This document shows positions 1 to 13,083 of a stretch of DNA of 39,740 nucleotides, piece by piece. A model generated the notes under the pieces. The model was not told the origin of the DNA, searched no databases, and worked only from the letters and a program-made list of their open reading frames with translations. The stretch comes from Campylobacterales bacterium. Its GTDB lineage: Bacteria; Campylobacterota; Campylobacteria; Campylobacterales; QNZT01. Both the position numbers and the translations under genes were made by a program. Position 1 is the stretch's first letter. Each line of letters starts with the position of its first letter. The stretch spans positions 1-39,740 of the forward strand of contig JALWLO010000096.1 of NCBI GenBank assembly GCA_027084135.1, in the 5' to 3' direction.

Positions 1-134
1 TCTTGCTTTCTAAAGAGCACTTCAAGGATCAAACACACTACCTATATATTTTTATCTTTTTTTCTGCCGTTTCAGTTATTCTTTATAAAACGGCTTTAAT
101 CAGCGCACTTTTATTATTATAACCATATCTATAT

Positions 135-154
135 TATAATCTTTTGGATACAAT
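135..154 (+). promoter_or_regulatory. Candidate -10 elements upstream of tatB
   Basis: Two sigma70-like -10 hexamers lie in the A+T-rich leader of tatB: TATAAT at 135-140 and TACAAT at 149-154. Neither has a good -35, which is usual in Campylobacterota, where T-rich stretches replace it. A Shine-Dalgarno AGGAA at 179-183 serves the ATG at 190. The transcription start cannot be chosen between the two by eye. Confidence 0.45.
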
Positions 155-189
155 AGCTTTCATATTTTACAAATGAGCAGGAATAGACA

Positions 190-558
190 ATGTTTGGAAT
201 GAGTCTAGGGGAAATTTTTGTCATTGTGATCATCGCCATACTCTTTGTCGGTCCCGATAAACTACCGACGATGATGGTTGAGATAGCCAAATTTTTCAAA
301 GGTGTAAAGAGAACGATCCACGAAACCAAAGAGTCGATAGAGCAAGAGATACACTTGGCTGAGCTCAAAGAGGAAGCACTCAGTTACAAAGATAGTTTAG
401 AAAAAGTGGTTGAGGATTATAAAAAAGAGACAGATTTTGATATCATCCACGATTTAAATGAGGAAGTGGGAGAGATCTCCCACTCGCTCAAAGAGCTTGA
501 AAAGCCAAAAAAGAAAAAGAAGAAAAAATCGAAAAAGAAGGAAGAGAAGGATGTTTGA
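190..558 (+). CDS. tatB: Sec-independent translocase protein TatB
   Basis: 122 residues. It has the TatA/TatB architecture: one N-terminal membrane helix (residues about 5-21), a hinge with the typical FVGPDKLP motif (about 19-26), then a long amphipathic helix and a charged cytoplasmic tail. With TatC it forms the receptor complex that recognises twin-arginine signal peptides on folded proteins. It overlaps tatC by 8 bases, so the two are translationally coupled; this pairing favours TatB over TatA. The tail ends in a lysine-rich stretch (about residues 105-122) encoded by A-rich DNA. A likely Tat substrate, the M15-type peptidase at 30569-31141, lies in the same window. Confidence 0.9.
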   Translation: MFGMSLGEIFVIVIIAILFVGPDKLPTMMVEIAKFFKGVKRTIHETKESIEQEIHLAELKEEALSYKDSLEKVVEDYKKETDFDIIHDLNEEVGEISHSLKELEKPKKKKKKKSKKKEEKDV

Positions 559-1279
559 GGAGTTAAAACCTCATCTTGAAGAGCTTAGAAAGAGACTGGC
601 TATCAGCGTAGCGGCTGTGATAGTACTCTTTTTTGTAGCGTTTAACTTTTGGGAGCCGCTTCTTGACTGGATGACCGCACCGCTGGTAAAGGTTCTGCCG
701 GAGGGGAGTCATATCATCTTTACAAAGGTACAAGAGACATTTTTTACCGCACTCAAAGTCTCATTTTTTACCGGTTTTTTGGCTGCGCTTCCTATCATAT
801 TTTGGCAGATTTGGCTCTTTATCGCCCCGGGTCTCTATGAACATGAGAAAAAGTTAGTACTGCCCTTTGTAGGTGGAGCGACACTGATGTTTCTGCTTGG
901 AGCGGCATTTTGTTACTATATCGTGATACCCTACGGTTATGCATTTTTGATAAACTTCGGTTCGACCCTCTTTACGGCACTCCCAAGCATCGGTGAATAT
1001 GTAAGCTTCTTTACAAAGCTGATTTTTGGTTTTGGATTGGCGTTTGAGTTACCGGTATTTACATTTTTGTTTGCAAAGATGGGACTTGTAACCGATAGAA
1101 CATTAAAAGATTTTTTCAGATATGCGCTTGTTATCATCTTCCTGCTCTCTGCCCTCTTGACACCTCCGGATGTCTTAACACAATTCCTCATGGCGGGACC
1201 GATGATATTGCTCTATGGTCTCTCGATACTTATCGCTAAAGCGATCAACCCTGAAGAGAAAGAGGCGAATGAGGAGTGA
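551..1279 (+). CDS. tatC: Sec-independent translocase protein TatC
   Basis: 242 residues, a normal TatC length, with six hydrophobic segments. The N terminus MFEELKPHLEELRKRL matches the conserved cytoplasmic start of TatC, which binds twin-arginine signal peptides. The reading frame stays open upstream to 458, but that stretch only reads the lysine-rich end of tatB in another frame; the ATG at 551, preceded by a purine-rich GAGAAGG, gives the family N terminus. Stop at 1277-1279 overlaps the start of queA by 11 bases, so tatB-tatC-queA form one operon. Confidence 0.95.
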   Translation: MFEELKPHLEELRKRLAISVAAVIVLFFVAFNFWEPLLDWMTAPLVKVLPEGSHIIFTKVQETFFTALKVSFFTGFLAALPIIFWQIWLFIAPGLYEHEKKLVLPFVGGATLMFLLGAAFCYYIVIPYGYAFLINFGSTLFTALPSIGEYVSFFTKLIFGFGLAFELPVFTFLFAKMGLVTDRTLKDFFRYALVIIFLLSALLTPPDVLTQFLMAGPMILLYGLSILIAKAINPEEKEANEE

Positions 1280-2294
1280 TCCTTGCAGTATCGATAGCTA
1301 TGACTACTATCTCCCTCCCCATCTCATAGCCTCTCACCCCGCAAATCCAAAAGATAGTGCGAAACTCTTGGTCTATGATAGGCAAAAAGATCGTATCACT
1401 CATGCGATATTTAGAGATATTTTGGAGTTTTTGCCCTCAAACGCAAAGATCATCTTAAATGATACGAAAGTGGTTAAAGCGAGACTCTTTGGACACAAGG
1501 AAAGCGGCGGAAAGGTAGAACTGCTCTTCAATAGCCCGATTGGTGAAGATAGATATCTCGTCTATATCAGAGGGAGAGTCAAAGTTAGTACTAAACTCTT
1601 TTTCGGCGATTCATTAGAGGCGAAAGTCTTAGTGTTAAATCGTGACGGTAGTAGAATCGTCAGATTTTACAGAAACGGAAAAACGGTCGAGCTTGAAGAG
1701 CTTTATCACATACTCGACAAGATCGGTCACATCCCGCTGCCTCCCTACATCAAACGCGAAAATAAGCAAGAGGATGAGAAGGATTATCAAACAATCTTTG
1801 CCAAACAGGAGGGAGCGGTAGCCGCTCCGACTGCTTCACTGCACTTCACCCCTACTCTATTTCAAAAAATGCAAGAGCAGTATGAAACCTTTTTTGTCAC
1901 TTTGCATGTGGGAGCCGGAACCTTTAAACCGGTGGAGGTTGAAAATATCTTAGATCATAAGATGCATAAAGAGTTCTACTCCATACCGCTTAGTACTAAA
2001 AAAATCATAGAGTCTGAAAAGCCCATCGTTGCGGTTGGAACAACCGTAACAAGAACGATAGAGTACTACTATCAACATAGAGAGCTTGAAGGAGAAGCGG
2101 ATATATTTCTACATCCAAACAACCCTCCCAAAAGGGTCAATCACCTACTCACCAACTTTCACCTTCCAAAATCAACCCTCCTTATGCTTGTCGCCTCATT
2201 TGTCGGTATAGAGAAGATGCACCGACTCTACCAAGAAGCGATCGATAGAGAGTATAGATTTTACTCATACGGTGATGCGATGTTGATACTCTAG
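1269..2294 (+). CDS. queA: tRNA preQ1(34) S-adenosylmethionine ribosyltransferase-isomerase QueA
   Basis: 341 residues. QueA transfers the ribosyl part of S-adenosylmethionine to preQ1 at the tRNA wobble base, giving epoxyqueuosine. Family landmarks: YDYYLPPHLIASHPA near the start, NDTKVVKARLFG, the GHIPLPPYIKR segment, VAAPTASLHFT, VTLHVGAGTFKPV, and NFHLPKSTLLMLVASF near the end. The frame is open to 1215, but the ATG at 1269 gives the family-like start MRSDPCSIDSYDYYLP and overlaps the tatC stop, implying coupling. The gene carries three TAGTACTA palindromes: 1586-1593, 1991-1998, and 2292-2299, where the TAG stop codon forms its first three bases. Confidence 0.95.
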   Translation: MRSDPCSIDSYDYYLPPHLIASHPANPKDSAKLLVYDRQKDRITHAIFRDILEFLPSNAKIILNDTKVVKARLFGHKESGGKVELLFNSPIGEDRYLVYIRGRVKVSTKLFFGDSLEAKVLVLNRDGSRIVRFYRNGKTVELEELYHILDKIGHIPLPPYIKRENKQEDEKDYQTIFAKQEGAVAAPTASLHFTPTLFQKMQEQYETFFVTLHVGAGTFKPVEVENILDHKMHKEFYSIPLSTKKIIESEKPIVAVGTTVTRTIEYYYQHRELEGEADIFLHPNNPPKRVNHLLTNFHLPKSTLLMLVASFVGIEKMHRLYQEAIDREYRFYSYGDAMLIL

Positions 2295-2309
2295 TACTAA
2301 AACTAAAGT

Positions 2310-2342
2310 CGGTAAGCTTTAGAGTCACTCTAAAACTTACCG
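2310..2342. terminator. Hairpin between convergent queA and barrel gene
   Basis: An inverted repeat with 16-base arms and one mismatch (left arm CGGTAAGCTTTAGAGT) spans the 36-base gap and the last codons of the barrel gene. No T-run follows on the plus strand; on the minus strand a T-containing stretch (GACTTTAGTTTTAG) follows. It is best read as a terminator for the minus-strand operon, possibly bidirectional. Confidence 0.55.
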
Positions 2343-5300
2343 ATCACATTGATAAACCACCCTTTGGCATCATAATCATCCGCAGATCTTAGATCATCGC
2401 TAAAGTGGCTAAAGTTATATCCCACGCCAAGCTTTAAGTGGGAACCGATATGGCGATAGAGTCCAAGTAGATACCCATCTCTTACACCGTCATCCTTTTG
2501 CTTAAGCCAATGAACCTCAGCCAAGGCATCCCATTTTTTAATAAGATGATAGTTGGCTCTAAGTGCCGCTAAGTAGATATCACTTTTGTGCCACCGATCA
2601 TCATCTCTATCAGTCTTGATCTGCTTATGTTTGTAACCTATTTTAGAACCCAAACTCCACTTGCTAGAGATCTGATAACTATCCTCCAGTGCAAAGATAT
2701 GGCTCTTCTCTATCGGATGGCTCTCTATCTGCTCAAGTGACGGCAGATCATAGAGGTAGATATATTTACCGATGATATTAAGTCTGCTATTTTCAATCGG
2801 TCGATAGGCAAAGCCCACTCCTGATTCAACAAATCTAGCCACCTCTCTATCTAGTACTAAATCATCCGTTTTACTATAGTTAAGCTTCGCCATCACCCTC
2901 CATGAAGGATTGAGAGCGTAGCTGAGATAGTTTGTTGTGAGATACTGCTTCTGTTCAAAGTTTTGGGCACTATCTTCTCTATACTCCAGCTTTGTTCTAG
3001 CCTCGACCTTTTTATTACTATATCTGACTCCTGTTGAAATCGACTCTCGATCTCTTCTATTGATATCATCATAGGCGACTCTATTGTATGTCAATCCGGC
3101 ACTTAAACTTTTGCTAAATGCATAATTCATACCGAAGGTATTGCCGACTCCAGCCATCCTATCTTCGTGGCTAAACTGATGCTCCGAAAAGATAGATAGT
3201 TTATCATTTACCCTACTTCTCTGTCCCAGAGTCAAGGTATCTTTTGAGCCCTCTGTTGAATCTGTCGATAAAATATAGTTGCTATATAGCGATATATCTT
3301 TGGTCACACCATACTCTATACCGACTTTCGTACTATCTCCTCTATCGCCGGTACTCGCTTCGGCATCAAATGTCGTTCGACCGTGATTGTACCTTGTTCC
3401 AAGAGTGTAGAGGTCATTTTTCTCATACTCCCCTTCATTTTCTAGTGTACTTTGCGCTTTTAGATAGAGATCGAGGTTCTCTCTCAACGCATAACTCGCC
3501 CTCACTCCGGCAAGTGTCGCACTTCCAACCTTTGTCTCATCTCTTTGATTCTCTACGGCTCGTAGTTCGGCTCCCACTCTCCACTTACGAGCCACTTGCA
3601 TATCTGCTTCGATACTGGCGGTTTTCTCTTTATTGTTCGCCTCTTTGAGAGAAGTGGCTCTCGCTTTTGCCGTTAACCTTTTACTTAGGTGGGAAGTTGC
3701 CTCTACTCCCATATCTTCAACCTCTTGTGTACCGCCAAGCCTCGCATTTGAGAAGCCGTTCTCTCTCTTTTTGTACCAAAGCGTTGCGACACTCTCATGT
3801 GCTGTCTCTTTAAAGTCAGAGAGTGCAAACTCCGCCTCAATGCCATAAGCGTTTCCATTTGGGTTACTTGCATTGGAGTCGATCTGATCAAAAGTGAGCC
3901 CACCGTCATGCGATCTAAAATTTGCCCCGTTTGACTGCACCGCCTTAGAGTGAGCTATTTCCGCTTTGATATAACTCTTTTTGCCTCCTCTTAGCGTCAC
4001 ATCCATACCGCTCACTTCATAGTCGCTATTACTCCTACCCTCATGACTATAAGTGGCTCCCACTCCGAGATAGTCCGTAAGCCACTCTTTGATCCTACCG
4101 CCGTAAGTGGCTTGATTGGCTTTAAACTCATCCGGTAGATACTCATAATCCACCTTCAACACTACCCTATTCCCATCTAACGGCATATCTTTGATGATGG
4201 ATGGTCCACTCATATCGGAGTATGGTGAGAGTGGTCTTGTAAGGATGATACGCCCTTGGATCTCATCGATCTCATAATCCTGCCCCCTCTTTAGCTCTAC
4301 CTTTTGCGTTACCCTCTCTGAGTTTCGCTCTCTCACCTCTACCCAAACCTTTTCACTCCCCTCTATGATCTCTCTATGTTTGAGGTAGTAAAGACTTCCG
4401 CCGGTCGCCTCAAACTCATTGTGTCCATAGGCACTTTGCGCTTCAGATGCGTAGAGGGTTATATCTCTTTTGTTATCACCGAACTTCGTCTTTTTCATAG
4501 AGCTATGTTGCACTTTTGCTCCATAGAGCGAACGGTTTACATTGGCAAACTCATTCCCCGTGATACCGGTGTTATAGTTACCCCACAATGCTTTTGACTT
4601 ATCCCAAGCCAAACTAAGGTAAAACTTCCCCTGCGTATCCGTATCTTTATAGGAGTGAGAATCATCACCGTATAGATAGTAATACTGATCAGGGTCTAAA
4701 TGTCTAAAGAGCCTTCTAGGATCCTTTTTATCGAGGTTTTTAAAGATATTTTTTATATCATCCTCTTGGGTATCGAGTTGGGCTGTTAAGAGATACTTCC
4801 CTTTGATCTTCCCTTTTAGATAAAACGCCAAACGACCGTCGATAAATAGATCTTCATTAAAGTGTTCATCTGCTTCTAGCGGCTTGATATTTCCACTTAC
4901 ACTATATTTACCCATCGTAAGGTCAGCCAACCCTATCATAAAGATATGGCTATCTTTGACATTTAATGCAAGGGCTTCATCAAATGTTTCACCCTTATCG
5001 GTCATCACCGTAACAGGGATGATATACTCTCCACCCTTTCTTATCTGCTCATAGACAAATTTCCCTTGCGAATCGACTCTTACCTCTTGGTTATCTATCT
5101 TTAGGAGATAGTCAGGATTTAGCCCCTCTCCATAGACACGAACTCTCGCACCCTCTATGGAGATAGATCTCTCTTTTAGATCACTCTTTCCAAATATCTC
5201 TCCGGCAATATCCCTAAAGCCCTCTTGTGGCTCTCCCTTTTCGATAAGAATACGCTTTAGTACTGTCTCATCACTATCACCCGACTTATCAAATACTTTG

Positions 5301-5836
5301 AGTTGATATTTAAGAACTGTTTTCGGACTGAGCTTCAACTTTAATTTACCGATATCAAACACTATCTCATCAGGTAAACCCTCGCCTTTGAGTGTTTTGA
5401 TCTTTTTTAGCTTCTCACCGTTATCTAGGTAGAGATCCACTTCATAGTGATCGATATAGTCGCTATAGTTGTTATATGTATAAAACTTGATCCTTTTGTC
5501 ACCCTTTTTACGTAGATATAAGGTATCTGAAGCGATCGCTAACTTGGGCTTATTGACAAGCGGATCACTTGTAGCCCAAAGTGTGGCGTTTGGATTTAGG
5601 TAGACTCTACTACTGATACGCTCCACCTTCGGTACCTCACGGATCTCCTGCTCTTTTGTCTCCATAAAAAGATCAACCCGTCTATTCTTCTGCATACCGC
5701 CGCTTGGACGGTCATTTTTTGCTACAGGTGCACACTCTGCATGATTGACAATCGTCGCCTTATACTCTCCCTTAGCCATGAGTATGCTTGAAAGAAGAGT
5801 CGATAGTAAAATAGTTTTTGCTTGGATACTTCTCAT
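2330..5836 (-). CDS. Outer-membrane barrel protein with OmpA-tail-like N terminus
   Basis: 1168 residues. There is a signal peptide (about residues 1-21). Residues 29-58 resemble the end of an OmpA-like peptidoglycan-binding domain: APVAKNDRPSGG then KNRRVDL at 50-56. C35, in this segment, is the only cysteine in the protein. Residues about 80-330 look like beta-sandwich domains. From about 330 the chain has alternating amphipathic beta strands rich in aromatic residues, ending GWFINVIGKF with a terminal Phe, as expected for a BAM-inserted beta-barrel. A YGDDSHSYKDTDTQGK stretch precedes the barrel. Its ATG overlaps the stop of the giant repeat protein (ATGA, 5833-5836), so the two are coupled. 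I recognise the overall architecture as that of uncharacterised outer-membrane proteins paired with DUF11/SdrD-type proteins; no function is established. It could be an anchor, a porin or an export channel for its partner. Confidence 0.75.
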   Translation of the reverse strand: MRSIQAKTILLSTLLSSILMAKGEYKATIVNHAECAPVAKNDRPSGGMQKNRRVDLFMETKEQEIREVPKVERISSRVYLNPNATLWATSDPLVNKPKLAIASDTLYLRKKGDKRIKFYTYNNYSDYIDHYEVDLYLDNGEKLKKIKTLKGEGLPDEIVFDIGKLKLKLSPKTVLKYQLKVFDKSGDSDETVLKRILIEKGEPQEGFRDIAGEIFGKSDLKERSISIEGARVRVYGEGLNPDYLLKIDNQEVRVDSQGKFVYEQIRKGGEYIIPVTVMTDKGETFDEALALNVKDSHIFMIGLADLTMGKYSVSGNIKPLEADEHFNEDLFIDGRLAFYLKGKIKGKYLLTAQLDTQEDDIKNIFKNLDKKDPRRLFRHLDPDQYYYLYGDDSHSYKDTDTQGKFYLSLAWDKSKALWGNYNTGITGNEFANVNRSLYGAKVQHSSMKKTKFGDNKRDITLYASEAQSAYGHNEFEATGGSLYYLKHREIIEGSEKVWVEVRERNSERVTQKVELKRGQDYEIDEIQGRIILTRPLSPYSDMSGPSIIKDMPLDGNRVVLKVDYEYLPDEFKANQATYGGRIKEWLTDYLGVGATYSHEGRSNSDYEVSGMDVTLRGGKKSYIKAEIAHSKAVQSNGANFRSHDGGLTFDQIDSNASNPNGNAYGIEAEFALSDFKETAHESVATLWYKKRENGFSNARLGGTQEVEDMGVEATSHLSKRLTAKARATSLKEANNKEKTASIEADMQVARKWRVGAELRAVENQRDETKVGSATLAGVRASYALRENLDLYLKAQSTLENEGEYEKNDLYTLGTRYNHGRTTFDAEASTGDRGDSTKVGIEYGVTKDISLYSNYILSTDSTEGSKDTLTLGQRSRVNDKLSIFSEHQFSHEDRMAGVGNTFGMNYAFSKSLSAGLTYNRVAYDDINRRDRESISTGVRYSNKKVEARTKLEYREDSAQNFEQKQYLTTNYLSYALNPSWRVMAKLNYSKTDDLVLDREVARFVESGVGFAYRPIENSRLNIIGKYIYLYDLPSLEQIESHPIEKSHIFALEDSYQISSKWSLGSKIGYKHKQIKTDRDDDRWHKSDIYLAALRANYHLIKKWDALAEVHWLKQKDDGVRDGYLLGLYRHIGSHLKLGVGYNFSHFSDDLRSADDYDAKGWFINVIGKF

Positions 5837-8800
5837 TGTGCACCTCCTCTATGCTGATTTAAAAGTGTGTGACAATCTTTTTGTTTGATGCCAAATCTCG
5901 TACACTCTTTCGGTGTTCTCGGAATATTTGGTTTACCCCACCAGTCATAGAGCGGGTTAAATTTAACCTCTTTGTCACAACTGTTGTAGATCACATCTAC
6001 CTTATCAATCATCTCATCTCCTAAACGATATTTCAACTCTTTATAGACACTCAGCGCCCTCTTATACGCAAGTTTTTTGTTGTACCACATCGGTGCCCTT
6101 GCATCGGTGTTACCCTCTATCCTGATCGACCCGCTTCCATACGCTTTGATCTTCTTCACTAAGTTCTCAATAACCGGTACTTGATCAGGTCTGATACAAT
6201 CTTGATCCGAATCAAAATAGATTGTTCCAAGTTTTGTGAGTTTGCTTACCCAAACCTTCTCTTTATGCATCACCACTTTGCTAATGGTACGCTTTTTTGC
6301 AAACGGCTTCTTTTCCGGCAGCTTCACACCAAAATCGATCTGATTTAATCCACTTGCCGTCACACGATAGACTCTCGGGTTCTCAGTCGTAAATTTCGCC
6401 CCCTCAGGGAGTGTGGCAGGATCGACTTTGAGGACGATATTTTTTCCTCTCCATCCAAATCCACCGCTATCGTTATCAGCGATATGGTATCGTCCATATG
6501 CGTCGGTTTCGATCACTATTCCCTCAACGGTTGCGATTCTTACACCCGGGATTCCTCTCTCACCCCTATCCTGGATGCCGTTTTCGTTGCTGTCTATAAA
6601 GACTTTTCCAACTACTACGGCATTGTCTACAAACGGATCAGACTCCACTCTCACAGTCGCTTTGGAGAGGTTACTCACCTCTTCATCATTTGAGACCGCG
6701 ATCGCCTTATTGGTATGTTTACCTTGTGATACTCCCACTCCCACTTTAAGTAGGTAGCTGATAGTCACCACCTCTTTTGGTTTTAACTCGAACTTACCAA
6801 ATGTGATCGATTTCGTACCGCTTGCATCAAGTTTCTTAGCCTTTTTATGCTCTCGCTTGATCTTTGCACTACCCTCAACATATCTAAATCCCGCAGGTAT
6901 CAAATCTCTAATCTCAAGTGCGGCGTACCTAAAGGATTTATCCACATTCTCCACACGGATCGAATAGGGAACAAAATCACCTATCTTCACATCTTTTTTA
7001 AGCACTTTTTTGTGGATCTTAACAAACATCGGTGCGATAGCCAGATCCTCAAAATCTTGATCTTTAACATCCTCCATACCATCAAGACTAAGTCTGATGA
7101 TGTTGCTATTTCCACCATCCTTATCTTTTAGTGACTCATAACCTTTTTTGTCGATTTGTACTATTTGATAATCACCAGGTTTCAAGCCCTCAAAGCTATA
7201 ACTACCGTTCTCATCGGTATAGGTTATTGCGATACTACTCTCTTCGGTACAAACAACATTTGATTTACATAATAGGAGTTTACCGTTATGAAGCGGTTCA
7301 TCCACCTTTCTATCACCATCGATATCTACTTTAACCGTACCGCTAACCGTAATCGTCTTTTGGTCATCAAAATTTTGACCGGTAATATCTTTGGTTGAGA
7401 GCGTTATCGATATGTTGTTGTCATTTGCTCCATCAACATCCCTTAATGAATCAAACCCTTTTGGATCACTCTCTACTATAGTGTAGTGCCCCGGTGTGAT
7501 ATCCTCAAAGAGATAGTTACCATCTTTATCACTTCTCGTTGAAGCGATCTCCTTATCTCCCTCATAAAGTGTAACATTGACATCAGCTAGTGCGATATCT
7601 ACACCTTTTCCAAGCTCTATCTTGTTGTCAAAGTCCATATCGGCTCTCACTTGTCCTGAAACTTTGAGTAGCGGCTCATCTAGGAAGTTTTGCCCCGTCA
7701 CATCCTTAGTACTAACTTTGACGGTAATATTATTGTCATTTTTATCGTCGATATCACTCACGGATGTATATCCCTTAGGATCTATCTCCATTACGGTATA
7801 ACAATCTGGAATCAACCCGTCAAACCGATACGCGCCTTTCTCATCCGTTTGAGTCGTTTGTATGATCTTGCCCTCTTGACAACTATAGAGTTGAACCGTT
7901 ACATCCTTAAGCGGAACTTCGCCTTTTTTGTCATTGTCGATATCGCTCTCTACCTTTCCTGAGATAGATTTCAGCGCTATCAGACCCATATCAACTGTAT
8001 GCTCTTTGGTTGCACTACCAATCTCAACCTCATCAGTTGTATTTGTCTCAAAATTTACATCACTATCTTTACTATCATCACCCCTATTTTTGACTGTAAT
8101 GCCATATCCATTTGGAACTCCAAATTTAACTAGGTACCTACCAGGTTTCAATCCTCTAAAAATATAGTTTCCTGAGTGATCAGTTATAGTCTGTGAAACT
8201 ATCTTCTTAGTTACGACTTCAATCAGTGTAACATTGACATCCGCAACACCTTTCTCATCCGGATCTTGAATGCCGTTATCATTACTATCAAACCAGACAA
8301 GATCACCCAACTCATTATCAGTATATAATCCTAAATCTACACGCCTCTCTATCTGATCGCTTACTATTGTAAAACTATCACTTATACCGGTCTCGGGTTT
8401 TACATCACTATCTCTATTCTCATCTCTACCTTGATTTTGTGAGGTAATATGGTAACCATCCGGTATTGTAAACTTAACACGATAACTGCCAGGTTTAATA
8501 CCATTAAAGCTATAAATGCCGTTTGAATCTGTAGTAGTATGAAGATTTGTAGAACTATTATCTTCATTTAATAGTTCTACATCAATACTAGCAACACCAC
8601 CTTCATCAGGATCTTGAATACCGTTTTTATTGATATCTAACCATACTAAATCACCTATCGCACCATCTTTAACAAGTGCAATATCTACATCATCTCTATC
8701 CTCTCCGGAAACAAGGGTGAAAATATCACTACTTCCATCAAGCTTTATATCACTATCTTTACTACTATCTGAACCTTGATGATATTTACCTGGTGTATAG

Positions 8801-11800
8801 TGCTCAGGAAATTCTACAGTAATATAATATTTTCTATTTGGTATCAATTTATCAAACTTATATTGACACTGCTGTGTTGTAACAGCTTTAGTACTATTTA
8901 ACTCATCATGGAGTGTAACTTTAACTTCTATACCGTCACAATCCTCTCCGCTATCTTGGATACCGTTTGAGTTACTATCGATCCAAATCCTATCACCGAT
9001 CGAAGCCTCTTGATAGAGTCCAAGATCCCAGCTCATATCCTCTGTTCCAAGATCGATATGGATACTTGGTGTCATAAGTGTTTGATCTACATCGCTATCT
9101 TTTGTATCATCTCCACTATCTTTAGGCGATAGTTTATACCCGCTAGGCAGGGTAAATTTTACCTTGTAATCTCCCGCTAAGAGGTTCTCAAAACGGTAGT
9201 TTCCATTTGCATCACTCTTAGTACTAAGACCGGTTGCTGTTCCATCTGCTTTCAAAAGCTCGATCGTAACATCCGCAACTCCCTTTTCACCCTGATCCTG
9301 AATACCGTTTGCGTTACTATCTAGCCAGATACGGTCACCAATCGCACTCTTTGTGTAGAAGCCAAGATCCACATCCAACTTATCGATACCGTTATTGATA
9401 AGGATCGCATCGGTTGTATGCGTAGTACTAAAGTCGCTATCTGTACTATCACTACCCTGATCTTTTGGCGAAATCTCAAATCCCTGCGGAAGATCCACTT
9501 TTACTTTATAGGTACCCGGTAGTAGATTTGTAAAGAGATAGTGACAGTTGTGTGTCGTTTGTGTCTGGATCGGATGATCCGCACTATCTAAGAGTGAGAC
9601 ATTGAGATCGATATTTCGACAATCCTCACCGCTCTCTCGAATACCGTTGTGGTTGGTATCGTACCAGATCGTACTTCCGATCGATGAGGGTTTGTAGATA
9701 CCGGCGTCATATTTGAGATCTTCACTCTTTATACCCAAGTGAAATTGTGCCGTTTTGCCTTGTGCATCGATATCGCTATCTTTTTCATCATCACTGCCCA
9801 CATCTTTAGGAGAGATATGAAATCCGCTCGGCGGTGTAATTTGGATATAGTAATCCCCTGAGTGGAGATTGTCAAAGGCGTAGTAACCCGCTTTACCGTC
9901 GGCATCGTTTGCACTCTTTGTCGTTGCAACCAGTGTACCGTCGTTTTTATAGAGTTTGACTTCGATATCGTTGATACCCGACTCTCCCGCATCTTGGACA
10001 CCATTTGCATTAGCGTCAAACCAGATATAGTCTCCCACCTTACTCTTAACAATCACAGTACTCGCTGAATTTGAGAGTACTGGAAGTGTGACACCCGTTG
10101 CAGATGCACCGGCAGAGTTGTTGTAAAAGTCATCCGGTTGGTTGTTTTGCACACGCATACTGATCTGCATCTGACATACCGCATCCTTCTCCATCGATGG
10201 ACCCATAGCTCTAACCGCCGTGACTTCCGCTTTGGTAAATCCACAACTTGCCGCAGGACCATTCTCATCCCCCTCACACCAGATAGATCTGCTTCCCAAT
10301 GCATTTGAGGTATCTTTTGGAGACATATTGATCGTTGTAGGTTCTGCATTGGTGTAGTAGTAGTGAACACCCGGACTCAAATCACAAAGTGCCGGAGATT
10401 TTGGGTGAGCGATGAGTTTGAGCGATTCAAAAGCTCTTGTTCCGTTAAAGTGCGTTCCCGGTCGTCGTTTGAGATTGAGATCACGAAACTTGATAGCACC
10501 GTCATTTCCGTCACCATTGAATGGAAGAATATCGATTATATCAAGCTCTGTTACCTCTACATCTGAACCGTTTCTGGCATCGACCGCATAACGGATCGGC
10601 TCGCCGTTAGTCTCTTGCGGTTCGGTATTGAGAACCGTTTTAGCGAGATTGATGGTAGCCGGTATCGTGATGTTGATATTGACCTCCGATCGTCTTTGAG
10701 ATACGACACTCACATCGGCAGGAGACTCGATATAGGCATAGTTTGTTAGTGTTCCCTGAGAAGCGGTTGACTCTATTTGTGCTTCATAACTAATAGGAGC
10801 AATATCTTCATTAGTAGTTTTAGTTCCTAAATTCCAGATCAAAACTTGATTATCATTCGTACATGTGACACTTGTATCATTGATATCGTTACAAGTTCCG
10901 ATCGTCGGCTCAGGAGCATTTTGAACACTCGAAGGGACATAGTGGAGTCCAACAGGCAACATATCTTTAATGATAACAGTTGATTGTTGCTTAGTTCCAG
11001 TATCATTCGTGTAGGATGGATTGAGCGTAAAGATCGCTTTTTGTCCAAGTTCAAAGTTGTTTTTATTAACACTCTTTTCAATTCTTACCTTACCACCGGA
11101 GTAGGTAACTCTATCCCCTGCCCATCCTTCAGGAGGATTTGGATATTCATGAGGTATATAACTTGTCTGGTACCATGATGTAAAGTAATCATCATCCTTC
11201 ACAGTAGCATAGTTGACAATCTCATCACCGTTTTGCAACGCTTCTCCATCCAAAGTTTTAGCTCGAACTCTGTGGTTTAGCCAAGCATAGATATTCCCTC
11301 CCGGTTCTAAAACTTTTCCGGGCTTTAGCTTAATCCTCACCTTTGTGACCGTACCTAAACCATGCTGTTTCGCCTCTTCTAGAGAGTTATACCAAACTAC
11401 ACTGCTGTCACTGCACTCTCTGACGATATCCGCCGCATGATTTGCGTTAAGATCACCCCCTTTGGAGGGAAGCCAACTATCATTGACATAGGTTGAAGCA
11501 TACTCAAAATCTAAATCCTCCATCTCGACACCGACAACCCTAATATCAAATGCCCCGCTTCTATTAAAGCGTTCACTACCTGCTGGGACATTAATCACCT
11601 CCAGACGATTCGCATCGATAACATCGCATATGATACTATTGTGAAAAGGGATACCACCCTCATTGGTATAACCTAATCGGCTGGCAAAAACGGCACCAGC
11701 ACTTAGGAGTCCGTCACCCGTACGCCATCCGGCAGAACCACCCTCTCTATAACTCCAAACACCATGCTTCTCCGCATACCCTTTACTAAAGCCACCTCTT

Positions 11801-13083
11801 GCATAGTAGAGTGTGAGAGAGTAGCTATTATCCTTTTCACTCTCTGTTAATGAGCCGAAGTTGGAGTTGCCTGAGGGTGCAGTTGGGTCAAAGTTAATCA
11901 ATTTATTTATTGTTTGCAGTTGCCCATCATCATCTGTATCTGGTTGATGATCATTTCCATCTTTTACATCTTGCAACGGAACAAAAACTCTAATCGAACC
12001 GATCGTCGCAATGGCACGATTAACAGGTAACTTTCGTCCAACTTGATCATACCTTGGGATATGATTGAGTGTAGCATCAACATGCTCTAACTTAATATCG
12101 ATCAAAGAGCCGTTTTGATTACAGGTGATCTTTTGTACCCCTTTAGGTGTTGCAATTGAGCGCTCCGGATAATCCGCATTATAGTAGGGATAGGGGTCAT
12201 TACTATTTGCACCGTATTCAACCAAACAATCATAAAGTTTTGCATTTGGAGATACATCACTTAAATCATCTTTGAAAATAAAAGTTGCATCTGCTCCCAT
12301 CGACTCACTACCCAAATAAGCAGGTGCATCATCAGTTTCTCCATCTACCTCATCTACTTCCACATAAAATTTATAGTAGATCAAATACCCTTTTTGACCT
12401 TGAAATTCAACACCTGAACGATGCCAATATCTTGACTTTTGCAGATTCCATCTCGGTGCTGCGGTTACGGTGAGAGAGACTCCTGCGTTGTCACTTTGCG
12501 CAGTAGCGTTTGGTGCGGAGATCTCAAAAGAGATATCTCCCGGTTGCGCACCGTTTGGATTGGAACCCAAAACTCTTACGGTAAATGTTAGATCTTCGGC
12601 AACCGTTCCTACTTGATTTTTATCAAAATCTTTTCTAACACAAACAATACTTCGTCGATCATCACTCAATGAGGAGAGAGAAGCGTTACAACTACCAGGA
12701 AGACCGCTCCACTCATACCCTCGTGGAAGGGTACTCTTGAGTGTGACGGTATCTTCATTGGCATCCGGATCACCGTTCCAACTCCATGCGGCAACAACCT
12801 CAAAGAGATCATTAGTACGAACAATCAGATCACCGCTATAGGTATCATCCGACCCATCGTTGGGCGTACCGTTATCACTCCAGCCTGGATCGTTGGCAAA
12901 GTCACAACCTGGTGTCGGATTATTCTGGCACACTAAACGACCATTGATTTTATCACTTGTGGTATTGAGCCTACCGGCAATACCGCCCGTTTTCCCATAC
13001 TTTGTAATGATCTTTATATTTGCGGCATTTAAGGCTATCGCAAAGAATAGTGAGATCATCAATACTCTAATCATTTTAAACAA
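5833..13083 (-). CDS. Giant modular surface protein: DUF11 and SdrD-B-like repeats, truncated OmpA-like domain
   Basis: 2416 residues. A signal peptide ends near ALNA (about residue 20). Residues about 40-1000 are beta-rich and contain DUF11-like modules, clear at about 660-840. Nine SdrD-B/Cna-B-like modules follow from about 1010: six long ones with a calcium-binding DxNxNGxxD loop, then three shorter ones (about 1700-2010). Next come another DUF11 module (about 2020-2145), a final SdrD-like module (DSNENGIQDRGERGIPGV, about 2155), and an OmpA-like domain (about 2283-2370: GTIYFDSDQDCIRPDQ, GNTDARAPMWYNKKLAYKRA). The OmpA domain lacks the usual NRRV tail; a Cys-rich end replaces it. Start: TTG at 13083 sits 6 bases after GGAG of an AAAGGAG ribosome-binding site, whereas ATG at 13074 would be 15 away. 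Probably an exported adhesive or structural surface protein; the role is inferred from domains only. Confidence 0.8.
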   Translation of the reverse strand: MFKMIRVLMISLFFAIALNAANIKIITKYGKTGGIAGRLNTTSDKINGRLVCQNNPTPGCDFANDPGWSDNGTPNDGSDDTYSGDLIVRTNDLFEVVAAWSWNGDPDANEDTVTLKSTLPRGYEWSGLPGSCNASLSSLSDDRRSIVCVRKDFDKNQVGTVAEDLTFTVRVLGSNPNGAQPGDISFEISAPNATAQSDNAGVSLTVTAAPRWNLQKSRYWHRSGVEFQGQKGYLIYYKFYVEVDEVDGETDDAPAYLGSESMGADATFIFKDDLSDVSPNAKLYDCLVEYGANSNDPYPYYNADYPERSIATPKGVQKITCNQNGSLIDIKLEHVDATLNHIPRYDQVGRKLPVNRAIATIGSIRVFVPLQDVKDGNDHQPDTDDDGQLQTINKLINFDPTAPSGNSNFGSLTESEKDNSYSLTLYYARGGFSKGYAEKHGVWSYREGGSAGWRTGDGLLSAGAVFASRLGYTNEGGIPFHNSIICDVIDANRLEVINVPAGSERFNRSGAFDIRVVGVEMEDLDFEYASTYVNDSWLPSKGGDLNANHAADIVRECSDSSVVWYNSLEEAKQHGLGTVTKVRIKLKPGKVLEPGGNIYAWLNHRVRAKTLDGEALQNGDEIVNYATVKDDDYFTSWYQTSYIPHEYPNPPEGWAGDRVTYSGGKVRIEKSVNKNNFELGQKAIFTLNPSYTNDTGTKQQSTVIIKDMLPVGLHYVPSSVQNAPEPTIGTCNDINDTSVTCTNDNQVLIWNLGTKTTNEDIAPISYEAQIESTASQGTLTNYAYIESPADVSVVSQRRSEVNINITIPATINLAKTVLNTEPQETNGEPIRYAVDARNGSDVEVTELDIIDILPFNGDGNDGAIKFRDLNLKRRPGTHFNGTRAFESLKLIAHPKSPALCDLSPGVHYYYTNAEPTTINMSPKDTSNALGSRSIWCEGDENGPAASCGFTKAEVTAVRAMGPSMEKDAVCQMQISMRVQNNQPDDFYNNSAGASATGVTLPVLSNSASTVIVKSKVGDYIWFDANANGVQDAGESGINDIEVKLYKNDGTLVATTKSANDADGKAGYYAFDNLHSGDYYIQITPPSGFHISPKDVGSDDEKDSDIDAQGKTAQFHLGIKSEDLKYDAGIYKPSSIGSTIWYDTNHNGIRESGEDCRNIDLNVSLLDSADHPIQTQTTHNCHYLFTNLLPGTYKVKVDLPQGFEISPKDQGSDSTDSDFSTTHTTDAILINNGIDKLDVDLGFYTKSAIGDRIWLDSNANGIQDQGEKGVADVTIELLKADGTATGLSTKSDANGNYRFENLLAGDYKVKFTLPSGYKLSPKDSGDDTKDSDVDQTLMTPSIHIDLGTEDMSWDLGLYQEASIGDRIWIDSNSNGIQDSGEDCDGIEVKVTLHDELNSTKAVTTQQCQYKFDKLIPNRKYYITVEFPEHYTPGKYHQGSDSSKDSDIKLDGSSDIFTLVSGEDRDDVDIALVKDGAIGDLVWLDINKNGIQDPDEGGVASIDVELLNEDNSSTNLHTTTDSNGIYSFNGIKPGSYRVKFTIPDGYHITSQNQGRDENRDSDVKPETGISDSFTIVSDQIERRVDLGLYTDNELGDLVWFDSNDNGIQDPDEKGVADVNVTLIEVVTKKIVSQTITDHSGNYIFRGLKPGRYLVKFGVPNGYGITVKNRGDDSKDSDVNFETNTTDEVEIGSATKEHTVDMGLIALKSISGKVESDIDNDKKGEVPLKDVTVQLYSCQEGKIIQTTQTDEKGAYRFDGLIPDCYTVMEIDPKGYTSVSDIDDKNDNNITVKVSTKDVTGQNFLDEPLLKVSGQVRADMDFDNKIELGKGVDIALADVNVTLYEGDKEIASTRSDKDGNYLFEDITPGHYTIVESDPKGFDSLRDVDGANDNNISITLSTKDITGQNFDDQKTITVSGTVKVDIDGDRKVDEPLHNGKLLLCKSNVVCTEESSIAITYTDENGSYSFEGLKPGDYQIVQIDKKGYESLKDKDGGNSNIIRLSLDGMEDVKDQDFEDLAIAPMFVKIHKKVLKKDVKIGDFVPYSIRVENVDKSFRYAALEIRDLIPAGFRYVEGSAKIKREHKKAKKLDASGTKSITFGKFELKPKEVVTISYLLKVGVGVSQGKHTNKAIAVSNDEEVSNLSKATVRVESDPFVDNAVVVGKVFIDSNENGIQDRGERGIPGVRIATVEGIVIETDAYGRYHIADNDSGGFGWRGKNIVLKVDPATLPEGAKFTTENPRVYRVTASGLNQIDFGVKLPEKKPFAKKRTISKVVMHKEKVWVSKLTKLGTIYFDSDQDCIRPDQVPVIENLVKKIKAYGSGSIRIEGNTDARAPMWYNKKLAYKRALSVYKELKYRLGDEMIDKVDVIYNSCDKEVKFNPLYDWWGKPNIPRTPKECTRFGIKQKDCHTLLNQHRGGAQ
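7330..10060 (-). repeat. Tandem SdrD-B-like domain repeats within the giant protein
   Basis: Nine repeat modules are encoded here. Six, about 110-120 residues each, begin IGDxxWxDxNxNGIQDxGE and contain GxYxFxxLxPGxYxVxxxxPxGY and a DSD motif. Three shorter modules begin VSGxVxxDxDxD and contain STKDVTGQNF-like or equivalent ends. Modules 2 and 4 carry an extra Cys pair (GEDC ... C(H/Q)Y) absent from modules 1, 3, 5 and 6. The repeats have diverged at the DNA level, so the array is not a recent amplification. Confidence 0.85.

Follow-up and report, generated by a model that had tools for sequence, protein, structure and literature searches.

An OmpA-like domain divided between two overlapping genes for a giant repeat protein and an outer-membrane barrel in Campylobacterales

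The window analysed here, the whole stretch of 39,740 nucleotides from a Campylobacterales bacterium, carries two overlapping genes on its minus strand. The first gene encodes a giant protein in which a signal peptide is followed by DUF11 and SdrD_B repeats (Pfam SdrD_B, E 1e-206, in ten stretches; DUF11 was also matched) and then by the N-terminal half of an OmpA-like domain. The second encodes an outer-membrane protein in which two Ig-like stretches (residues 79-296) precede the β-barrel region. The features of this gene pair are listed in Table 1.

Table 1. Features of the giant-barrel gene pair in the window
Feature	Position	Strand	Description and basis
Giant gene	5833..13083	-	2416 aa from TTG at 13083; 2413 aa if begun at ATG 13074, the likelier start; translation
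Giant signal-peptide-like N-terminus	13024..13074	-	MIRVLMISLFFAIALNA; judged by eye
Giant OmpA N-half	5986..6228	-	Residues 2286-2366: β1, α1, β2, α2, β3a; profile, AF2, PDB relatives
Giant tail past β3a	5836..5985	-	YDWWGKPN..P..KEC..C; alignment, AF2
AGGAGGT Shine-Dalgarno-like stretch for barrel gene	5842..5848	-	Within the last codons of the giant gene
ATGA overlap	5833..5836	-	Giant stop and barrel start; identical in six orthologous pairs
Barrel gene	2330..5836	-	1168 aa, outer-membrane protein; OMP_b-brl Pfam match
Barrel signal-peptide-like N-terminus	5771..5836	-	Residues ~1-22; judged by eye
Barrel OmpA tail	5663..5767	-	Residues 24-58: β3-like strand, loop, β4 (NRRVDLF)
Barrel C35 codon	5732..5734	-	Sole cysteine in the barrel; unchanged in all six orthologues
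β-barrel region	2333..4948	-	Residues ~297-1168; Pfam and barrel profile; limits approximate

The end of the giant protein reads ...GTIYFDSDQDC (2286-2296)...GNTDARAPMWYNKKLAYKRA...VDVIYNSC...KECTRFGIKQKDC...GGAQ. The region from β1 to α2 with the signature TD...N..L..RA is present, a PDB search with the giant protein returned OmpA/Pal relatives with E down to 1e-17, and D2327 and R2342 occupy the places of the diaminopimelate-binding Asp and Arg, both positions being conserved across the giants. According to the original prediction, this domain lacks its usual end; translation and Pfam agree on this point, as no NRRV occurs in the domain, which stops after β3, and the Pfam OmpA match covers profile positions 1-64 of 98 only. 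The closing β3-loop-β4 segment with N-R-R-V is found in the barrel protein instead, whose residues 36-58 are APVAKNDRPSGGMQKNRRVDLFM. The NRRV segment had thus been placed correctly at residues 36-58, but the missing part proved to be longer, since residues 24-33 add a β3-like strand and the whole of residues 24-58 corresponds to the OmpA end that is absent from the giant protein.

The Pfam OmpA profile gave no match past position 66, either with the barrel tail alone or with the joined halves. Because it is blind to the tail, we made a test profile of our own from 36 full-length, uninterrupted OmpA domains; thirty of these came from the contigs of relatives and the other six from the host order. 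The results showed that this profile matched the giant protein over positions 4-84 (34.7 bits) and the barrel N-terminus over positions 91-119 (16.4 bits). The top tail-type score was 5.2 bits among 8,800 shuffled barrel N-termini and 0.6 bits among the N-termini of 780 other ORFs. Translation, Pfam, the 36-domain profile and the orthologues described below all bear out the central claim of the original prediction, that an OmpA-like domain is split over two overlapping genes.

The giant-barrel pair is present in five more genomes of the family, with barrels 55-82% identical; together with the window's genome, these are the six which, in a 299-genome sample of the order, have a full-length match to the giant C-terminus and an adjacent barrel N-terminus. 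In all six orthologous pairs, the same ATGA overlap, the same cut and a giant protein without NRRV were observed, so the overlap noted in the window recurs in its orthologues. The barrels share the pattern ...EC.P...NDRPS.GM..NRRVD. Another genome of the Campylobacterota (G442) has a giant-barrel pair with neither OmpA half. The window's genome also harbors a one-chain paralogue of 1527 aa (G000:C86, L026, 2531-7114) with a distantly related barrel and no OmpA domain; it adjoins an exported protein of ~370 aa, and this neighbourhood recurs among family members.

The four-base overlap, together with the existence of fused relatives, invites the reading that the two frames encode a single protein, so that the split would be only apparent and would reflect either programmed frameshifting or a frameshift error made in sequencing or assembly. 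Assembly error and chance were ruled out as the cause of the split by the ATGA and the shared cut in the six genomes, which excludes the assembly-error form of this reading. As for its remaining form, the identical ATGA occurs in six independent genomes, the AGGAGGT stretch lies 5-6 bases ahead of the barrel ATG, and the barrel protein begins with a signal peptide of its own; because of this Shine-Dalgarno-like stretch and signal-peptide-like start, we regard the barrel as a separate gene. Moreover, some split pairs have no gene overlap at all, and closed or isolate records show similar separate genes. A single protein read in two frames is therefore extremely improbable.

The original prediction proposed that the halves complement each other by strand donation and that modelling the chains would bear on it. 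When the C-terminus of the window's giant protein was modelled alone with AF2, α1, β2, α2 and β3 were formed (pLDDT 76, pTM 0.57) and neither β1 nor β4 was; the predicted fold is thus incomplete. A Foldseek search with this half gave a best E of 4.8e-4 and target TM values of 0.39-0.63 among the top OmpA/Pal matches. L095, a natural single chain, was modelled with an alignment in which the C-termini of giants and the N-termini of barrels stood in rows of their own. In this model all the strands were formed (β1 3-15, β2 42-50, β3a 84-91, β3b 146-155, β4 174-184; pTM 0.70), and Foldseek aligned it with OprF (E 4.6e-10, target TM 0.81) and with Pal (target TM 0.86) over both halves. A complete OmpA fold is thus predicted when both halves are present, as they are in the single chain L095, whereas the giant half alone stays incomplete, a contrast that is indicative rather than controlled, since the query and the alignment depth differ.

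In the fold class that includes the OmpA-like domain of RmpM, the sheet order is 1423 with β4 antiparallel (PMC2954203). The NRRV strand is therefore central in the sheet 1-4-2-3, which would explain why β1 is left without a partner in the half modelled alone; and since this central strand is absent from the giant protein, its domain should not close without the barrel. Both chains hold a β3-like strand, and either could take the canonical place.

The giant half might instead be completed by its own tail or by a second copy of the giant protein through a domain swap. The tail past β3a, ~50 residues with conservation limited to the Campylobacterota, and the tandem N-halves of relatives in Lysobacter, Kangiella and Luteimonas speak for such self-completion. 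However, when AF2 modelled half and tail together, the tail came out mostly helical, with no substitute β4, and β1 was missing as well; moreover, the tail is absent from other split pairs, such as that of Propionigenium. We consider completion without the barrel very improbable.

Homologous pairs and fused forms had both been suggested as informative, and both were found. When the giant C-terminus was searched against one genome per species, 79 loci in many phyla were retrieved, comprising two-gene pairs with the same split as well as single chains. The split pairs come from Cocleimonas, Lysobacter, Pseudoxanthomonas, Kangiella, Luteimonas, Rhodanobacter, Propionigenium and others; a plasmid collection added a split pair of Croceibacterium, with the giant protein annotated 'OmpA family protein' and the barrel 'hypothetical protein'. 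Among the carriers of the split are Gammaproteobacteria, Alphaproteobacteria and Fusobacteria. The single-chain relatives carry both OmpA halves in order, contiguous in some and separated by a linker in others. One barrel profile matches all relatives; in the barrel tree, split members are interspersed with fused ones and several changes are implied, with uncertainty at the root and in several long branches. The 36-domain profile was tiled by the two chains, the giants covering positions 3-88 (a few to 101) and the barrels 83-121; in the window and ~35 other adjacent pairs, the halves tile it without overlap.

Several members of the family depart from the window's layout. Tandem OmpA N-halves, the first of them degenerate, occur in giants of Lysobacter, Kangiella, Luteimonas and Croceibacterium (L092, L093, L105, L113, L139 and L155), and the barrel there has one tail. 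At L115 (giant at 1-4602, barrel at 4596-9065), the split N-half of the giant protein encloses a complete OmpA domain, and the barrel protein contains another complete OmpA domain further in and a tail that reads NERAD. Second copies in Cocleimonas and Leucothrix (L102, L110, L111, L137 and L143) have giants whose N-half fold scores 28-46 bits and has lost the peptidoglycan loop, and barrels with no recognisable NRRV. In the public plasmid records NZ_CP029209.1, NZ_CP050303.1 and NZ_CP011453.2, barrels of the family are annotated as TonB-dependent receptor or hypothetical protein. A degraded half suspected in alphaproteobacterial giants, for example in Phyllobacterium, was rejected as not significant (5.6 bits, against up to 12.9 bits for shuffles).

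Twelve single chains (L085, L088, L090, L091, L094, L095, L097, L101, L107, L116, L121 and L136) have in the OmpA-barrel linker a hydrophobic stretch that closes with A-x-A and in most cases separates the OmpA halves; examples are LLLSAVVGTAHA-AS, GLIVSTAHA-DS and GLVIGTAQA-DG. Their sequence suggests that the stretch is a relic or a working internal signal peptide. If it works, the split joint might be the general assembly mode of the family, with single-ORF members also cut at A-x-A and their chains rejoined in the periplasm, though we think this extension rather unlikely.

The two halves were compared over 45 two-gene pairs in which no chain holds a whole OmpA domain. Both halves were present in 36 pairs and neither in eight, including that of G442; the one exception is a pair of Leucothrix (L153), in which the giant N-half is kept and the barrel tail falls below recognition at the cut-offs used. 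Since pairs with neither half exist, in Vibrio, G442 and some Pseudoxanthomonas, the OmpA domain is not essential to the giant-barrel pair. On the tree, four independent contrasts stand behind the co-occurrence: in 3.8 of 4 the tail follows the giant half (p = 0.125), and the reverse direction never occurs; four contrasts are too few for significance, and the distribution on the tree is consistent with joint presence and joint loss of the halves. Pairs in which the giant protein keeps its own NRRV had been named beforehand as refuting the idea; among the pairs, none was found that combines a complete OmpA domain in the giant protein with a tail in the barrel. Where the whole domain lies in one chain (L119 and L150), no separate tail was detected in the partner; at L119, the giant protein has its own NRRV, and the partner without a detected tail is a fragment broken in the contig.

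These data also bear on whether the barrel segment is merely a leftover of an ancestral fusion, homologous to the OmpA end and by now out of contact with the giant protein. Such an origin would fit the single-chain relatives, which place both halves in one ancestral module, and the pairs that manage without either half. Decay would, however, be easy directly behind a signal peptide, where the tail lies, and yet 15 of the 22 residues at barrel positions 34-55 (68%) are invariant over the six orthologues, in contrast to none of the 20 in the neighbouring linker (59-78); the tail is also kept in distant phyla and lost along with the giant half. A segment that has lost its contact is improbable on this evidence.

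The original prediction added a possible intermolecular disulfide. Its cysteine counts were right: C35 is the lone cysteine of the 1168-aa barrel protein, and four cysteines (2296, 2369, 2394 and 2404) lie in the last 131 residues of the giant protein. None of these five cysteines varies among the six Campylobacterota pairs, which would suit a bond from C35 to a cysteine of the giant tail on top of the split-OmpA contact. On the other hand, the giant's four cysteines could bond with one another, and most other split pairs lack both a giant-tail cysteine and a counterpart of C35, their barrel proteins having a C-x4-C pair instead. Giant-tail cysteines are missing from the split pairs of Cocleimonas, Kangiella, Fusobacteria and most Lysobacter relatives, so the disulfide would be a clade-specific extra at most. 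We hold it to be a doubtful though possible addition.

Chaperone-usher pili provide a precedent for donor-strand complementation, in which one chain supplies a strand to the incomplete fold of another. As in those pili, the strand missing from one chain of the giant-barrel pair comes from another; the fold here, however, is alpha/beta OmpA-like and not an Ig-like pilin, no homology is implied, and the link is between a passenger and its barrel, not between subunits. Autotransporters and two-partner (type V) secretion likewise pair a large exported repeat protein with an outer-membrane barrel, and the giant-barrel family shares with them that it comes in two forms, passenger and barrel being fused in some relatives and encoded by neighbouring genes in the rest. 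Unlike in type V systems, the joint is an OmpA domain; Pfam and NCBIfam scans gave no match to type V families, translocator barrels or POTRA domains, and the barrel has no PDB relative by sequence. The single-chain DUF11/SdrD_B-OmpA-barrel relatives (for example L085, L095 and L100), whose layout may be said to resemble that of autotransporters, are homologous to the window's pair in the C-terminal region of the giant, in the OmpA domain and in the barrel, and differ from it in having one reading frame, with the A-x-A hydrophobic stretch kept in several. With the OmpA-like peptidoglycan-binding domains (PF00691; Pal, OprF, A. baumannii OmpA and RmpM), the profile, the fold and the diaminopimelate Asp/Arg positions are shared. 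The solved OmpA-like examples matched are single chains, whereas in the window's pair two proteins, each with a signal peptide, share the domain.

We conclude that the giant protein and the barrel are very probably joined by strand complementation through one split OmpA domain. The profile tiling, the single-chain relatives and the L095 fold as against the incomplete giant half support this conclusion, and the two-chain assembly itself is what we infer from these sequences and models. In the mechanism that we propose, the pair would be co-translated and each chain, to judge from its signal peptide, exported separately by Sec. The giant protein would contribute β1-α1-β2-α2-β3 and the peptidoglycan-binding Asp and Arg, and the barrel, right behind its signal peptide, a β3-like strand and the NRRV strand β4, a central strand. 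The N-terminal segment of the barrel would then close the giant half, presumably in the periplasm, and the closed domain would dock the giant protein onto the barrel and could hold peptidoglycan. Asp and Arg at these places bind diaminopimelate (PMC5974059), and their conservation in the giants suggests that the reassembled domain may bind peptidoglycan.

In a literature search, with subscription papers mostly outside it, neither a divided OmpA domain nor this pair of genes was found to be described. The OmpA domain and strand donation are already known; their combination in a natural division between passenger and barrel appears new. If the proposal is correct, a naturally split domain would lock a giant exported protein specifically to its own membrane barrel, and the cell-wall-binding module of the giant protein would work only when correctly paired, with the barrel giving the central strand. 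It would also offer a function for the start of a family of barrels annotated as hypothetical protein or TonB-dependent receptor, and may provide a ready-made split tag for the periplasm.
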